Under the pieces are notes generated by a model. That model did not search any database. It worked only from the letters and a program-made list of their open reading frames with translations, and had not been told where the DNA came from. From assembly GCA_904502205.1 (NCBI GenBank), contig CAJGDR010000025.1:1-12126 (forward strand): 12,126 nt of DNA, read 5' to 3'. Source of the stretch: an uncultured Bacilli bacterium (lineage in GTDB: Bacteria; Bacillota_I; Bacilli_A; ML615J-28; CAG-313). Below, piece after piece: positions 4,247-12,126 of the stretch. The first letter of the stretch is position 1, and the number at the start of each line of letters is the position of its first letter. A program made the position numbers and the translations under genes.

Positions 4247-4777
4247 CTACTCATCTTTTGCTTTATCTTCACTAATGATTTGAGCAACTCTTGTTGATGC
4301 TGCTGCTGCAATTGAACCGACAATATCATCTAAGAATGTATGGCATCTTCCTTTTAAGTCTTTACCTTCTTCGTTTAATCTGTTAACAACACCTGGTTTA
4401 TTAACATCGATATCACCAAAGTTAGTTTGACCAATTGAGCCATATAATCTTGCAATATCAATTCCTAAAATTTCATCAACACCAAATACTCCAAGATCAT
4501 AACGCATTATATCTTGAATTGGACCTTTAAACATTCCTTCTTCAGTAAGTCTATCAATTTCAACTCCTAATTGTAATAGGTGAAAAACATCACGAAGTGA
4601 TAGAATTTTTTCAACACTTTCCATACAATCAGAATATTTTACGTTTGCTGAATATTTAGCTTGTTGTTGATATGCGATATCAGCAATATCTTCAATTTTT
4701 ACACCACGCTCAAGTAGGGTTTGTTTGTTAATATCTAACATTTCTTGTCTTGAATAATATAATTTAACTTCTTTCAT
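4247..4777 (-). CDS. Phosphatidylglycerophosphatase A-like protein (YutG type)
   Basis: The protein (176 residues) resembles the soluble Bacillus YutG branch of the PgpA family, whose E. coli member removes phosphate from phosphatidylglycerophosphate to make phosphatidylglycerol. The conserved core is FGVDEILGIDIARLYGS (98-114), IGQTNFGDID (115-124) and CHTFLDDIVGSIAAAAS (145-161), with the paired aspartates D150-D151. The N-terminal third, including LLERGVKIEDIADIAYQQQ (21-39), is the usual leading helix region. No transmembrane segments are evident, unlike E. coli PgpA, so activity on a membrane lipid is inferred from family only. It starts 4 bases after fmt, with an AGAAAAGAG-like ribosome site inside the end of fmt, and ends 6 bases before rlmD. 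Co-transcription is very likely. Confidence 0.82.
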   Translation of the reverse strand: MKEVKLYYSRQEMLDINKQTLLERGVKIEDIADIAYQQQAKYSANVKYSDCMESVEKILSLRDVFHLLQLGVEIDRLTEEGMFKGPIQDIMRYDLGVFGVDEILGIDIARLYGSIGQTNFGDIDVNKPGVVNRLNEEGKDLKGRCHTFLDDIVGSIAAAASTRVAQIISEDKAKDE

Positions 4778-4781
4778 TTTT

Positions 4782-5717
4782 TTACTCTTTTCTATATTTC
4801 TTTAATCCACCATTAATAAAATCACATGATGGCATTTTCTTTTTACCAACTGGTTGTACTTCATAAATATCAAGGGTTGTGTTATTACCACAAGCCATTG
4901 TAAAGAATTTCTTAGAGACACTAACAATTGTTCCTACTTCTTTATTATGTGATAAAATTCCAATTTTTGCATTGTATACTTTAATTCGATCATTTGGATC
5001 GTTAAATCCTTTAAAGTAGAAATACATTCCTGGTTCATCAAGTAATCCTCTTAATGTTCTTTCAATCACAGTTGCTTCTTTTGTAAAATCTATTTCTTCT
5101 TCATGACTTTCAATATTAAAAGAGAATGTTGCTTCTTCTTCAACTTGTTTAATTGGCGTAATATTTCCACTAATTAAATTAGGTATTGTTTCCATTAATA
5201 AGTCACGACCTAACAAACTCATTTTTTTAAATAAAGTAGTAGATGTGTCTGTAGGTAAAATTTCTAATTCTTTTTGTGCTAAGATATCACCGGCATCCAT
5301 TTTTTTAGCCATATACATAATCGTAATAACAGTAACTTTATCACCATTCATTATAGCACGTTGAATTGGTGCTCCACCTCGGTGTTTAGGAAGAAGCGAT
5401 CCATGAACATTGATACTTTTATATTTAGGTGCATTTAATAGTTTCATTCCTACAATTTGACCATAAGCTGCAGTAACAATTAAATCTGGATTTAAAGCTA
5501 GAATTTCTTCGTAATCTTCTCTAATTTTAACTGGTTGAAAAACTTTCAAATTATGACTTTCTGCATAAACTTTAACTGGACTTTTTTGAAGTTCTTTTTT
5601 TCTTCCAACCATTTTATCAGGTTGAGTAACAACACCTACAACATCATACGTGTTATTTAACGCATCTAAAATTGGAACGCTAAATTCTGGTGTTCCCATA
5701 AATACAATTTTTAACAT
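4782..5717 (-). CDS. fmt: Methionyl-tRNA formyltransferase
   Basis: The enzyme transfers a formyl group from 10-formyl-tetrahydrofolate to Met-tRNA(fMet), making the bacterial initiator tRNA. The N-terminal catalytic domain opens MLKIVFMGTPEFSVPIL and holds the hallmark SINVHGSLLPKHRGGAPIQ (101-119). The catalytic triad corresponds to N103, H105 and D141 (in MDAGD). The C-terminal tRNA-binding domain (about 205-311) includes IDFTKEATVIERTLRGL and the DEPGMYFYF stretch. Length (311) is typical. The start at 5715-5717 has a strong AGGAGA (5722-5727) that overlaps the priA stop codon TAG, so translation is probably coupled to priA. In many Firmicutes the order is priA-def-fmt; here peptide deformylase is missing from the slot. 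Confidence 0.97.
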   Translation of the reverse strand: MLKIVFMGTPEFSVPILDALNNTYDVVGVVTQPDKMVGRKKELQKSPVKVYAESHNLKVFQPVKIREDYEEILALNPDLIVTAAYGQIVGMKLLNAPKYKSINVHGSLLPKHRGGAPIQRAIMNGDKVTVITIMYMAKKMDAGDILAQKELEILPTDTSTTLFKKMSLLGRDLLMETIPNLISGNITPIKQVEEEATFSFNIESHEEEIDFTKEATVIERTLRGLLDEPGMYFYFKGFNDPNDRIKVYNAKIGILSHNKEVGTIVSVSKKFFTMACGNNTTLDIYEVQPVGKKKMPSCDFINGGLKKYRKE

Positions 5718-5725
5718 AATATCTC

Positions 5726-8041
5726 CTAACTAATGGATTTTGAATAACGATCAAAAATAACCATTGTTTCTTTCTTTTGAAACATTTCATATATATGCAT
5801 ATAGATCTTTTTAATATTTGGATCTTTATGTTTTACAATTAATTGGACTTTCTTTTCTTTGTAATTATAACTTGGTCCAATTACTGAAATATTTGGATTA
5901 ATATTAAGAATCGTTTTCTTAATATTGTTTGCTGTAATAAACACTTCTTTGAAATCACCTTTTACAAGTATTCTATTCACTTCATAAAGTGGTTCAACTT
6001 TTAGTGCTTGTCTTACTTTTAATTCTTCATAAAAATATTCATCAAAATCATTTAAAATAAAGTTTTTAAGAACAATATTTTTTACATCATATGTTTGAAT
6101 AACTAATGTACCATTATTTAATAACTTTTTAGCATGTTGTAACATACTATAAGCTAAATGATTAGCATCATATGATGGTGTATTTAAAACAACATCTAAA
6201 TTAATAATTCCAACAACACTTAAATCTTTGATATCAACAGATCTTGAGAATGTATCACTTGTAATTAAAATATCAAGTTCATCTTGATTAAAGTTATCGA
6301 TTATTTCTTCTAACGAATCAAAGTTTGATTCTTTCAAAACTTTAACTTTTGCATTATCAAATAAACTTAATACAACTTCTTCTAACTTTTCCATACCAAA
6401 GCCATCATAAGATAGTTTATTATTTTTACAAATTGGACAAAGTTTTACTTCTTGAAGTTTTCTATAACATACTGGACAATATAATTCATGTTTTTCTTTA
6501 TGATATTGAAGAGGAACATTACAACTTAAACATTTTAATGTTTTTCCACAACTTCTACATGTTACACTAGTAGAGTAACCTTTATTATTTAAAATAAGAA
6601 TTGTTTTTTGTTTTTTCTTTAGCGCTTCATTTATTTTCATATAAAGTGCAGGACTAACAATAGTTGACTTAAATTCTTTTGATAAAGTAGTAAGATTTAC
6701 TACTTCATACTTAATAACATCATCAGTTTTATTTGATATTAATTTAAGATGTCCAAGCATTGCTTCTTTATATGTATTTAAAAGTGGTGCTAATGAATGT
6801 AGGACTAACTTTATATCTTGGTTATTAATAGTTTTATATAAATTAACTAAATCTAACATAACTAAGTTTAGATCATATCGAGGTGATTGATCGTTTCTGT
6901 AGTTTGAAGATTCTTGGTCTAACATTACAATTGTTTTAAGATTTGGATAGTTCCATAAGCTATAAGCAGGCGTTGTTACAAATACACTATATTTATCTAA
7001 CTCATGAAAATAATCATAAATTAAAGATTCTGAAACATTCGAATTTAAACAAGCTACTTTTACTTTAAGTAATTTTTTTATTTTTGAAGATATTTCATAA
7101 CTTTGTAAAATATCACTACACAAAATTAAAGTATTTAATTTATTATTAAGATTATCATTGATAATTCTTAAAAGAAATTCTAGTTCTTCATCTTTATTTG
7201 ACGGAATATATAACAATTTGTTTGATTCAAGATATTTACTCATGTAACTTGTAACAATACTAGATGTTTTTATATCATTTACTTTATATTCAATAATTTG
7301 TTCTTTTGTTCTTGAATACGCTTCATATGATTCTTTTAAGTATCCCTCACTAACCATTTTAGTAATTAAATACTTTGAAACGCCAAGATAAACTTCTAAA
7401 TCTTCATATGTTAATCCTTTAGAATAATCTTTTAAGAAATTTAGAACATCTCTTCTCATACTTGATTTTTGACTCATTAAATGTAGGTCAAATAAATCAT
7501 AATAAACTGAATATTTTTTTATCCATTTTGGTTTTTTTCTTTCTACTGCATCATACTTAATAACTATATCGCCAGATTGAATAGCAAGTTTTATTTGTTT
7601 TTCATAATCTTTAAATTTAGGTGTTACTTTAACAATTTGTTCACCATTAAATAAATTTAATAAATTAGCATCTAAGTTTGATCCGTTTATTACTTCATAA
7701 TATTTAAAAGTCTTTAGTCTTAAACCTTCTGGAATCATCAAATTTAAGATTCTTGACATTGGACTAATTGTTTCTAATTTAATCATTTTAGCAAGTTCAA
7801 TTTGAACATTGGTAAGAATTGGTGTTTCATCTAAAACTTCCAAAATAGGCTTAATTTCACCTAAAAATTCTGTTTTGTCACTAATATCTAAAACAATACC
7901 TAAAGTAGGACGATTACCCATACCAAATGGTACTTTTACTCTCATACCTTTAGAAACAATCATATTATCAGGAATGATATAGTCAAACTGATAATCTACT
8001 TGTGATGATGGGTTATCAATAATAATATTTGCGTAAGACAT
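5726..8041 (-). CDS. priA: PriA-like primosomal protein N' lacking helicase motifs (probable pseudohelicase)
   Basis: Overall architecture is PriA (771 residues; Bacillus PriA is about 800). The N-terminal 3'-end-binding domain has FDYIIPDNMIVSKGMRVKVPFG (about 19-40, seen in part) and a winged-helix region follows (about 190-240). The zinc module retains all eight cysteines: C495, C498, C504, C507, C522, C525, C535, C538, preceded by LNNKGYS. The ATPase residues, however, are gone. The Walker A slot (GVTGSGKT in active PriA) reads IPSNKDEE (279-286). The DEEH box reads DQES (375-378). The SATPS motif reads SLAPL (416-420). The GTQMxxKGxDF slot reads TSDTFSRSVDI (594-604). The QVAGRAGR arginine-finger motif reads QHAKKLLN (635-642). 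The frame is intact and expressed first in a four-gene operon, which argues for a selected structural role in primosome assembly rather than decay. ATPase loss is read from sequence; the role is inference. Confidence 0.88.
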   Translation of the reverse strand: MSYANIIIDNPSSQVDYQFDYIIPDNMIVSKGMRVKVPFGMGNRPTLGIVLDISDKTEFLGEIKPILEVLDETPILTNVQIELAKMIKLETISPMSRILNLMIPEGLRLKTFKYYEVINGSNLDANLLNLFNGEQIVKVTPKFKDYEKQIKLAIQSGDIVIKYDAVERKKPKWIKKYSVYYDLFDLHLMSQKSSMRRDVLNFLKDYSKGLTYEDLEVYLGVSKYLITKMVSEGYLKESYEAYSRTKEQIIEYKVNDIKTSSIVTSYMSKYLESNKLLYIPSNKDEELEFLLRIINDNLNNKLNTLILCSDILQSYEISSKIKKLLKVKVACLNSNVSESLIYDYFHELDKYSVFVTTPAYSLWNYPNLKTIVMLDQESSNYRNDQSPRYDLNLVMLDLVNLYKTINNQDIKLVLHSLAPLLNTYKEAMLGHLKLISNKTDDVIKYEVVNLTTLSKEFKSTIVSPALYMKINEALKKKQKTILILNNKGYSTSVTCRSCGKTLKCLSCNVPLQYHKEKHELYCPVCYRKLQEVKLCPICKNNKLSYDGFGMEKLEEVVLSLFDNAKVKVLKESNFDSLEEIIDNFNQDELDILITSDTFSRSVDIKDLSVVGIINLDVVLNTPSYDANHLAYSMLQHAKKLLNNGTLVIQTYDVKNIVLKNFILNDFDEYFYEELKVRQALKVEPLYEVNRILVKGDFKEVFITANNIKKTILNINPNISVIGPSYNYKEKKVQLIVKHKDPNIKKIYMHIYEMFQKKETMVIFDRYSKSIS

Positions 8042-9139: not shown

Positions 9140-10915
9140 CTATTGTTCTTTTTTAACAAAACGAACTTTTGCTGAATATGTAGTATGTAATAATTCATGA
9201 GCTTTATGAGAATTTGGTTTACCTAAGAATTCTTTATATAAAGCTTGAACTTGTGTATTGTTGTGAGATTGACGTAAAGCTTGACGTTCATCTTCTGAAT
9301 ATAAAGCTTGTGCACGTTTTTCTCTATAAGTATCTAAAATATTAGTATCTTCGTTTGGTAAGAACATTGGTTTAACAAATGGTTGACCACCACCGTTTAC
9401 ACATCCACCAGGACAACCCATGATTTCAATGAATGTATAAGGGCTATTACCTTCACGGATTTGGTCTAATAATACTTTAGCATTTTTCATTCCACTAGCA
9501 ACTGCAACTTTTAATTCTTTACCAGCGATTTCAAGACTAGCTTCTTTTAAGCCTTCCATACCACGAACAGCTTCAAATTTGATAGCTTCGTGTTCTTTAC
9601 CAGTAAGTACATAATATGCAGTTCTTAAAGCTGCTTCCATTACACCACCAGTAGCACCGAAGATTACACCAGCACCTGAGTATTCACCCATGATGTCTTG
9701 GTCAAATTCTTCATCAGGAAGTTTATTAAAGTTAATACCTGAACGTTTGATAAGTTTTGCAAGTTCACGAGTAGTTAAAACTGCATCTACATCTCTAAGA
9801 CCTTCATTTTCCATTTCTGGACGTTCTTTTTCATATTTTTTTGCTGTACAAGGCATGATAGATACTACATAAATATCTTTTGGATCGATTCCTTGTTTTT
9901 CAGCAAAGTATGATTTGATAATTGCACCTTGCATTTGGTGTGGAGATTTACAACTTGATAAGTGATCTAATTGATCTCCATAATAGTATTCAGCATAATT
10001 TACCCATCCTGGTGAACAAGATGTAATCATTGGAAGAACACCATTGTTTTCGATTCTTGATAATAATTCAGTTGCTTCTTCCATAATAGTTAAGTCAGCA
10101 GCGAAGTTAGTATCATATACTTTATCGAATCCAAGTCTCTTTAAAGCTGCAACCATTTTACCAGTTACAGGTGTACCGATTTTCATACCGAATTCTTCAC
10201 CTAAAGCTGCACGAACAGCAGGAGCTGTTTGAACAACTAAATATTTACCAGCTTTTTTAGCTTCATCAATTAAGCTAATTTCTGATTTTTCCATTAATGC
10301 ACCTGTTGGACAAACGTTAACACATTGACCACATAAGATACATGGACTTTCAGCAAATGAACGATTTTCAGCTGGAGAAACGATAGTATTGAAACCACGT
10401 TTTTCAAATCCTAAAATACCAGTTCCATGAGCAGATACGCATCTTGCAACACATCTACCACAAAGAATACATTTTGAAGTATCACGAATAATTGATGGAG
10501 TTAATTGATCAATTGTAACTGGTGTTTTAGCACCTTGGAATTTACCTTCTCTTGCACCTGTGATTTGTGCTACGTATAATAATTCACAGTGACCGTTTTT
10601 GTCACATTGTTGACAGTTTTGATTATGGTTAGAAAGTAGTAATTCAACACTTGCACGACGAGCAGCTGTTGCTTTTGGAGTAGAAATTTTGATTTCCATT
10701 CCTTCTGATACAGGATATACACAAGATGCAACAAGTCCTCTTGCACCTGTAACTTCAACTAAACATACACGACATGATGCTAAACTACATTCACCATGAT
10801 TGAAAGCGCAAAGAGATGGAATTTCATAACCACATTCTCTTGCAGCTTCAAGAATTGTTAAGCCTTCTTCCACTTGGTAAGATTGACCTTCAATTTTAAT
10901 ATTTACTAATGCCAT
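9140..10915 (-). CDS. hydA: [FeFe] hydrogenase catalytic subunit (NAD(H)-linked HydA)
   Basis: This cytosolic enzyme reversibly makes H2 from protons and electrons at the H-cluster. Domains in order over 591 residues: an N-terminal [2Fe-2S] domain with C36, C48, C51 and C65; a His-ligated [4Fe-4S] site with H97, C101, C104 and C110; two ferredoxin-type [4Fe-4S] sites (C149/C152/C155/C159 and C192/C195/C198/C202); then the H-cluster domain. Its three motifs are TSCSPGW (298-304), MPCTAKKYE (354-362) and EIMGCPGGCVNGGGQP (497-512), with C356, C501 and C505 as ligands. The first motif has Ser where Clostridium pasteurianum HydA has a second Cys. The start at 10913-10915 has GGGAGGAT just upstream. 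It follows hydB by 17 bases, as in NAD(H)-dependent, sometimes bifurcating, HydABC complexes. A conserved hydrogenase tail (HNNTQVQALYKEFLGKP, then HKAHELLHTTY) is present. Confidence 0.96.
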   Translation of the reverse strand: MALVNIKIEGQSYQVEEGLTILEAARECGYEIPSLCAFNHGECSLASCRVCLVEVTGARGLVASCVYPVSEGMEIKISTPKATAARRASVELLLSNHNQNCQQCDKNGHCELLYVAQITGAREGKFQGAKTPVTIDQLTPSIIRDTSKCILCGRCVARCVSAHGTGILGFEKRGFNTIVSPAENRSFAESPCILCGQCVNVCPTGALMEKSEISLIDEAKKAGKYLVVQTAPAVRAALGEEFGMKIGTPVTGKMVAALKRLGFDKVYDTNFAADLTIMEEATELLSRIENNGVLPMITSCSPGWVNYAEYYYGDQLDHLSSCKSPHQMQGAIIKSYFAEKQGIDPKDIYVVSIMPCTAKKYEKERPEMENEGLRDVDAVLTTRELAKLIKRSGINFNKLPDEEFDQDIMGEYSGAGVIFGATGGVMEAALRTAYYVLTGKEHEAIKFEAVRGMEGLKEASLEIAGKELKVAVASGMKNAKVLLDQIREGNSPYTFIEIMGCPGGCVNGGGQPFVKPMFLPNEDTNILDTYREKRAQALYSEDERQALRQSHNNTQVQALYKEFLGKPNSHKAHELLHTTYSAKVRFVKKEQ

Positions 10916-10933
10916 ATTATGAATCCTCCCTTA

Positions 10934-12126
10934 TTATTTTTTAATAATTGCTTTGAATCTACATGCTGATTCACATAGACCGCATTTAATACATTTAGAT
11001 TGATCGATAACATAAACTTCTTTACCAGGAGTTCCTGAAATAGCTCCTACTGGACAGTTACGAGCACATAATGAACATTTCTTACAAAGTTCTGGAACTA
11101 CATAATATTGAGTTAATTTCTTACAAATATGAGCTGGACAAGTTTTGTCAACGATATGAGCAATATATTCATTTCTGAATTGTTTCATTGTAGATACAAC
11201 TGGGTTAGCAGCAGTTTGACCTAAACCACAAAGTGAGTTAGCTTGTACTGTTTGAGATAATTCTTCAAGTTCAGCTAAATCTTCCATTGTACCTTTACCT
11301 ACAGTAATCTTTTCTAAGATTTCTAACATACGTTTAGTACCGATACGACATGGTGAACATTTACCACATGATTCATCACAAATAAATTCCATATAGAATT
11401 TAGCAACGTCAACCATACAGTTATCTTCATCCATAACGATAGCTCCACCTGAACCCATCATAGAGCCAAGTGCTACTAAGTTATCGTAATCAATTGGAGT
11501 ATCTAAATCTTTTGCAGTTAAACATCCACCTGATGGACCACCAGTTTGGATAGCTTTAAATTCTTTACCGTTTGGAATTCCTCCACCGATATCGTAAATT
11601 AATTCACGTAAAGTTGTACCCATTGGAATTTCAACTAAACCTACGTTATTAACTTTACCACCAAGAGCGAATACTTTAGTACCTTTTGATCTATCAGTAC
11701 CTACAGATGCAAATTCTTCAGCACCTTTTCTTAAAATGAATGGAACACATGCTAAAGTTTCAACGTTGTTGATAATTGTTGGTTGTCCCCATAAACCTTT
11801 AACAGCTGGGAATGGTGGACGAGGACGTGGCATACCACGTTGACCTTCAATTGAGTTTAATAATGCTGTTTCTTCACCACAAACGAATGCACCAGCACCT
11901 AAACGAATATGAACATTGAAACTGAATCCAGTTCCTAAAATATTTTCACCAAGTAATCCTAATTCTCTAGCTTGTTTGATCGCAGTTCTTAAACGGTCAA
12001 CTGCAATTGGATATTCAGCACGAACATAGAAATAACCATTTTGAGCACCGATTGCATAACCAGCAATTGCCATACCTTCGATAACAGCAAGTGGATTACC
12101 TTCTAAGATTGAACGGTCCATAAATG
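10934..12126 (-). CDS. hydB: NAD(H)-linked hydrogenase subunit HydB (NuoF-like), 5'-truncated by window edge
   Basis: The gene runs off the right edge. The ATG at 12119-12121 is not the start: it is the internal Met of the family motif (GDPGA)FMDRS, and the codon before it is TTT (Phe). About 190 or more N-terminal residues are therefore missing. Counting from that Met, the visible part has the glycine-rich flavin/NADH loop [14 protein letters not shown] (75-88), an SLBB-type domain (about 150-200), the [4Fe-4S] cluster [12 protein letters not shown] (C252, C255, C258, with C298), and two C-terminal ferredoxin [4Fe-4S] sites (C346/C349/C352/C356 and C377/C380/C383/C387). In the complex this subunit oxidises or reduces NAD(H) through FMN and passes electrons to HydA. 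It ends TAA, 18 bases before hydA, and shares its transcript. A hydC-like subunit is expected just beyond the window. Bifurcation is possible but not proven from sequence. Confidence 0.95.

Follow-up and report, generated by a model that had tools for sequence, protein, structure and literature searches.

We uncovered a version of the replication-restart protein PriA that has lost its ATP-binding and hydrolysis residues. It is encoded in a 12,126-nucleotide stretch of DNA from an uncultured Bacilli bacterium (contig CAJGDR010000025.1 of assembly GCA_904502205.1), which is hereinafter called the window. The protein is very probably a PriA orthologue, most likely the only one of its host, which now acts as a pseudohelicase that reads forks and recruits helicase loaders. 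The gene is intact, the predicted model displays the full PriA fold, and the residues for ATP binding and hydrolysis are lost; among relatives the gene is under purifying selection, occurs order-wide and is accompanied by the genes for the loaders. The lack of ATPase activity, the binding of forks and the recruitment of DnaD are predictions. The relevant features of the gene are as follows:

5726..8041, minus strand: priA-like open reading frame (ORF) for the putative PriA pseudohelicase, 771 amino acids (aa), ATG start, intact frame
7730..8041, minus strand: 3′ DNA-binding domain (3′BD), residues 1–104, kept (PF17764, E 2.7e-20)
7286..7729, minus strand: winged-helix domain and linker, residues 105–252, kept (from the model; approximate limits)
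7181..7204, minus strand: former Walker A/motif I, residues 280–287, PSNKDEEL for GVTGSGKT (from the alignment)
6911..6922, minus strand: former motif II, residues 374–377, LDQE for DEEH, an acidic remnant with no His (from the alignment)
6875..6901, minus strand: loop after motif II, residues 381–389, YRNDQSPRY, assigned to the position of the PriA aromatic-rich loop
6782..6799, minus strand: former motif III, residues 415–420, HSLAPL for GSATPT (from the alignment)
6428..6559, minus strand: cysteine-rich region with eight zinc ligands, residues 495–538, kept (8/8 Cys in 39/39 sequences)
6230..6262, minus strand: former motif V, residues 594–604, TSDTFSRSVDI for GTQMIAKGLDF (from the alignment)
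6116..6136, minus strand: former motif VI/arginine finger, residues 636–642, HAKKLLN for QVSGRAGR, one residue short
5729..6046, minus strand: C-terminal domain, residues 666–771, kept (model match)

The helicase motifs were read against 14 canonical PriA rows, including those of Bacillus velezensis and Klebsiella pneumoniae, all of which hold [AG]xxxxGK[ST], a DExH-type box and GRxGR. Unlike these, the window protein displays neither the Walker A GKT/S nor the motif VI arginine finger of an active superfamily 2 helicase, and reads LDQES in place of the DExH box. For motifs I and VI the same holds across a set of 39 sequences, made up of the window protein and 38 genome copies from the order of its relatives: none has GK[ST] at the P-loop position, and none has both arginines of the motif VI pair. 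The initial annotation, which had every helicase motif replaced, is thus right for motifs I, III, V (SRSVDI) and VI (HAKKLLN), and overstated for motif II, which persists as a remnant, and motif IV, whose region is largely retained (LILNNKGY). Its loss of Walker A stands in a corrected register, in that PSNKDEEL rather than IPSNKDEE faces GVTGSGKT when aligned without gaps; its change of SATPS to SLAPL is likewise real, yet leaves a Ser and a Pro in place. Canonical Walker residues elsewhere in the protein, which it had named as grounds for abandoning the pseudohelicase reading, are absent, the window protein containing no [AG]xxxxGK[ST] string at any position. Of 86 pseudo-PriA rows, 11 carry a chance string of this form, which lies at residues 128–142 in the winged-helix region in 10 rows and at residue 494, just before motif IV, in the remaining one (L073).

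The domains surrounding the former motor are kept, and the initial annotation had correctly given the coordinates, strand, intact frame and PriA identity of the gene, along with the retention of its N-terminal DNA-binding domain and eight zinc cysteines. The 3′BD scores 72.5 bits with PF17764 (cut-off 22.7) and includes FDY (19–21) and K64, the latter invariant across the 39 rows. Equally invariant are the cysteines of the two four-Cys zinc sites (residues 495, 498, 504, 507, 522, 525, 535 and 538) and G722, P723 and K737 of the C-terminal domain. All six domains of the PriA fold are present, and the predicted model matches PDB 8fak and 4nl4 over residues 2–770. In domains, fold and cysteines the protein resembles the canonical PriAs of Bacilli and Gammaproteobacteria.

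The pattern of conservation in the lineage's PriA is inverted. Across the 35 columns of motifs I, II, III, V and VI, the top-residue frequency averages 0.93 in the 14 canonical PriAs and 0.40 in the 39 lineage sequences, the latter at the level of random columns of the helicase lobes (0.44); the eight Cys columns stand at 1.00. The loop after motif II shows the opposite trend: its residues 381–389 average 0.66 in the 39 rows, above the 0.44 of randomly drawn columns of the lobes (P 0.001), whereas in canonical PriAs the same loop is no more conserved than the lobes (0.69 vs 0.61, P 0.21). Within it, QSP at 385–387 is found in 16/16 sequences of the window's half of the order and in 0/23 of the other half. 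Assigned by position, this segment would correspond to the aromatic-rich loop of Escherichia coli PriA that couples DNA binding to ATPase activity; in a cryo-electron microscopy study, an HD1 loop described as having this coupling role is inserted at the junction of the fork (PMC10175261).

We also find that the priA genes of the relatives are under purifying selection. The ratio of nonsynonymous to synonymous substitution (dN/dS), computed by NG86 on six close pairs, five within the order and one of the Acholeplasma type, is 0.068–0.204 overall, with synonymous divergence reaching 1.8 in some regions. The window gene is in none of these pairs, given that the nearest relative with DNA is only 55% identical to its protein. 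The comparison of zinc and ATPase regions proposed by the initial annotation gives low values for both, namely 0–0.138 for the cysteine-rich region and 0.075–0.237 for the former ATPase lobe. Thus, a lobe without catalysis appears still to be held in place, more loosely in some pairs. An intact gene that has lost its catalytic residues and remains under selection, as measured on relatives, is what is expected of a PriA pseudohelicase.

The motif-less PriA characterizes an entire order of uncultured bacteria from the gut, bearing out one of two options raised by the initial annotation. Among the best 120 of 124 matches listed in a protein search, at least 49 are without a DEAD domain in precomputed Pfam assignments, these being the 48 closest (P0001–P0048) and P0119. 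A scan of genome contigs with the single protein as query recovered no relative; an alignment-based scan recovered ten loci in metagenome-assembled genomes labelled Bacilli, Acholeplasmataceae or Erysipelotrichaceae bacterium. Of the 43 genomes in the order of the relative G002, 38 show one TIGR00595 match each (218–306 bits), G041 has two (657 and 238 bits), and G025, G026, G038 and G043 have none at E<=1e-30. Motif I loss was read directly in 37 of the 38 single-copy genomes and in the second copy of G041; the exception, G032, is a 389-aa fragment and was left out of the 39 rows. In a class-wide sample of 149 genomes, 126 matched TIGR00595 and the scores form two groups: 103 lie at 382–678 bits, and 17 of the window's order along with four others at 226–306; two further matches are weak (G174 and a 387-aa frame of G068).

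We dropped database fragments under 700 aa (P0007, P0018, P0046 and P0047), the truncated duplicate loci L011–L042, and a 230-aa fragment at a contig end in G025; the two matches of G010 look like one gene split by contig ends and were left apart. The 39-row counts use only genome copies and the window, whereas the 58-row group A mixes database and genome copies and has one duplicate pair (L004 and P0030). Other TIGR00595 matches were rejected as PriA, since among the matches listed their frame lengths fit Mfd, RecG and UvrB. An extra PF17764 match in G003 (24 bits) was also rejected as a second PriA: it corresponds to a PriA-3′BD-like stretch at the C-terminal end of a repeat protein of 732 aa (L013, on G003:C28).

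These distributions bear on whether the motif-less gene is a decaying copy alongside an intact PriA elsewhere in the genome, a situation that the initial annotation had named as fatal to its reading. In searches with PF17764 and TIGR00595 for a second canonical PriA, the sole exception among the 43 genomes is G041, which carries both an intact and a motif-less priA and would be the precedent for such decay. Its intact gene lies on a contig of 3,466 bp whose only other frame is short, and the product shares 92% identity with P0122 and 74% with that of G356, a genome outside the 43; the motif-less PriA of G041 shares 44% identity with the closest relative within the order. Given this contig and these identities, the canonical copy fits contamination, though this is unproven. 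With the motif-less form alone in 38/43 genomes and dN/dS values of 0.07–0.20, we give decay next to no credence.

The loss in the order is independent of a second one in four Acholeplasma-type genomes (G085, G109, G124 and G130; L045–L048). Their PriAs are like that of the window in lacking the same helicase motifs and in the order priA–fmt–pgpA; they differ in having lost four of the eight zinc cysteines and in retaining a GTQM remnant. In an RpoB tree, the 12 sampled genomes of the order form one clade (100/100), and three Acholeplasma-type genomes (G124 is not in the tree) group as the sister of G136 (100/99). In the PriA of G136, the motifs are intact (GVTGSGKT, DEAH and GRSGR). A single loss common to both groups was rejected, with a log-likelihood lower by 258 and p-AU 1.3e-70, in a constraint test of 15 rows against 12 that excluded G044 for its long branch. 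Losses in the Acholeplasma clade may number more than one, as G063, G165, G154 and G255 were put in the canonical group despite some degenerate motifs; G063, for instance, reads GKAASGKT and is without the motif VI Arg pair. These neighbours (L125–L127 and L062) could represent intermediate stages. Two other PriAs outside both groups, L049 of G174 (685 aa) and P0119 (702 aa), have no Walker A or motif VI and may be further independent losses.

The loader genes that the initial annotation had asked about are found in the relatives. The DnaB_2 domain of the DnaD/DnaB family occurs in 43/43 genomes of the order, in 40 of them at two or more places, and DnaI_N in 37/43 (both at E<=0.01). RecG is present in 42/43, three times as partial frames, G043 having only an Mfd-like frame; Pfam confirms DnaD, DnaB, DnaI and a RecG with a DEAD domain in G002 and G004. 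RadA/Sms was found in 0/43 at E<=1e-60, a limit that ten of ten bacterial controls passed and a divergent RadA could escape; this non-detection might reflect a second loss of a fork-processing motor. Downstream of priA, the window carries two syntenic genes:

4782..5717, minus strand: fmt, methionyl-tRNA formyltransferase, 8 bases after priA, a marker of the orthologous locus
4247..4777, minus strand: pgpA, phosphatidylglycerophosphatase A, downstream of fmt

In L044–L048, L051 and L062, too, priA is followed by an fmt-like frame, as judged by eye, and the order priA–fmt–pgpA is common to the window, G154 (with most motifs kept) and the Acholeplasma-type genomes. Alternatively, such a PriA might have given up replication restart for another task, e.g., structural DNA binding or the protection of forks, with restart proceeding free of PriA. 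Indeed, several small genomes of the class (G046, G058 and G069; 0.7–0.9 Mb) have no TIGR00595 match at E<=1e-30, so that life without a recognizable PriA seems possible nearby. However, the best-kept parts are those of PriA fork recognition, i.e., the 3′BD, the eight cysteines, the post-motif-II loop and the C-terminal domain; DnaD, DnaB and DnaI are retained; and priA still precedes fmt and pgpA in the window and the seven other loci examined. Hence, we regard repurposing as unlikely.

Several observations weigh against a fork-reading pseudohelicase. Comparison of structures yields a tie in Z (30.9) with an Mfd chain (9n11_A), although over only 332 residues. The window protein scores 207.1 bits with TIGR00595, below the curated priA cut-off of 230; this model spans the helicase part of PriA, which is the site of motif loss, and the motif-less PriAs of relatives score 218–306 bits, with a match above the cut-off in 36/43 genomes. 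The second-copy test rests on relatives, the nearest with genomes (G001 and G002) being 55 and 54% identical, and DnaI_N was not found in 6/43 genomes at E<=0.01. The motif II Asp at 375 persists in 29/39 sequences, shifted one residue nearer to a following Tyr present in 39/39; DE at 375–376 is seen in 17/39 and a full DEDH in 2/39, both from the order's other half. Along with the Ser and Pro of motif III (HSLAP vs GSATP), this acidic relic exceeds what a freely drifting pocket would keep. The acidic box and a Lys at the P-loop position in 12/23 sequences of that other half could even point to a divergent active helicase that still binds or hydrolyzes nucleotide through a rearranged site. The absence of GK[ST] and of the motif VI Arg pair from every lineage sequence, motif columns no better conserved than random lobe columns, and a window protein without any P-loop string together make this highly improbable.

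A pseudohelicase that only recognizes forks and loads partners, as the initial annotation had proposed, is therefore the reading that we support, its loading role being suggested by the kept domains and the kept DnaD, DnaB and DnaI. The protein would bind the branched DNA of a stalled fork via the 3′BD, the winged helix, the post-motif-II loop, the cysteine-rich region and the C-terminal domain. In so doing, it would offer a surface for the recruitment first of DnaD and then of DnaB and DnaI, the proteins that would place the replicative helicase on lagging-strand DNA. Being motor-less, it would itself be unable to clear the nascent lagging strand. It might act only on forks that already expose single-stranded lagging-strand DNA, or else another enzyme could prepare the forks, RecG being present.

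In Bacillus subtilis, PriA recognizes branched DNA and loads DnaD and DnaB; these two, together with DnaI, then load the helicase, and the importance of the PriA motor is described as unsettled (PMC10804225). In E. coli, the PriA variant K230A, which is ATPase-dead, still supports the loading of DnaB in vitro, and PriA–PriB restart in vivo does not require the ATPase (PMC10175261). The closest parallel is the PriA of Deinococcus radiodurans (Deinococcus-Thermus), for which PMC4504706 reports no ATPase or unwinding, retained fork and single-stranded DNA binding, and contact with DnaB. There too the Walker residues are lost, with a Lys-to-Arg change in Walker A and poor matches to motifs I and II. 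By that published description, the window protein differs in being without motifs I, III, V and VI, the last partly deleted, and its host in belonging to Bacilli whose relatives keep DnaD–DnaB–DnaI. On the simplest reading, Bacilli would have arrived independently at such a protein and taken the change a stage further.

The PriA of actinobacteria is not known to contain helicase domains. Unlike it, the window protein favors the best PRK05580 model (299 bits) over PRK14873 (at most 101 bits), which we take to be the actinobacterial type. Actinobacterial PriA is further described in PMC1193525 as smaller and very divergent. Among the matches listed in the open-licence PMC literature on PriA (covering pseudohelicase, Deinococcus, Acholeplasma, actinobacteria, Mycobacterium and DnaD), titles and abstract openings do not describe the present lineage.

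Elsewhere in the window, the minus strand upstream of priA codes for an iron-only, HydA-like hydrogenase with a NuoF-like subunit (9140–12121); judged by eye, comparable long frames also lie ahead of priA in L001 and L002. The start of a Y-family polymerase gene (IMS, PF00817; 1–426, minus strand) is cut by the window end, and a 145-aa RhuM-family ORF (PF13310; 2060–2497, minus strand), matching only profile positions 4–69 of 252, is probably a truncated gene. No Rfam family and no tRNA were found in the window.

Thus, evolution appears to have removed the PriA motor across a whole order that retains the DnaD–DnaB–DnaI loading chain and, separately, in Acholeplasma-type genomes. With at least two losses of the PriA ATPase, and perhaps further ones in G174 and P0119, we tentatively entertain, as a possibility short of an even chance, that motor-less restart is a stable and repeatedly reached state in Bacilli, wherein a static PriA works with DnaD–DnaB–DnaI, fork reversal by RecG is the only dedicated means of exposing the lagging strand, and no recognizable RadA/Sms, the other enzyme proposed to unwind nascent lagging strands, takes part. 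The need for the PriA motor in restart could hence be tested with natural proteins rather than point mutants, and the surfaces conserved in the motor-less form, namely the 3′BD, the eight cysteines, the post-motif-II loop and the C-terminal domain, would indicate which part of PriA is important for loading.
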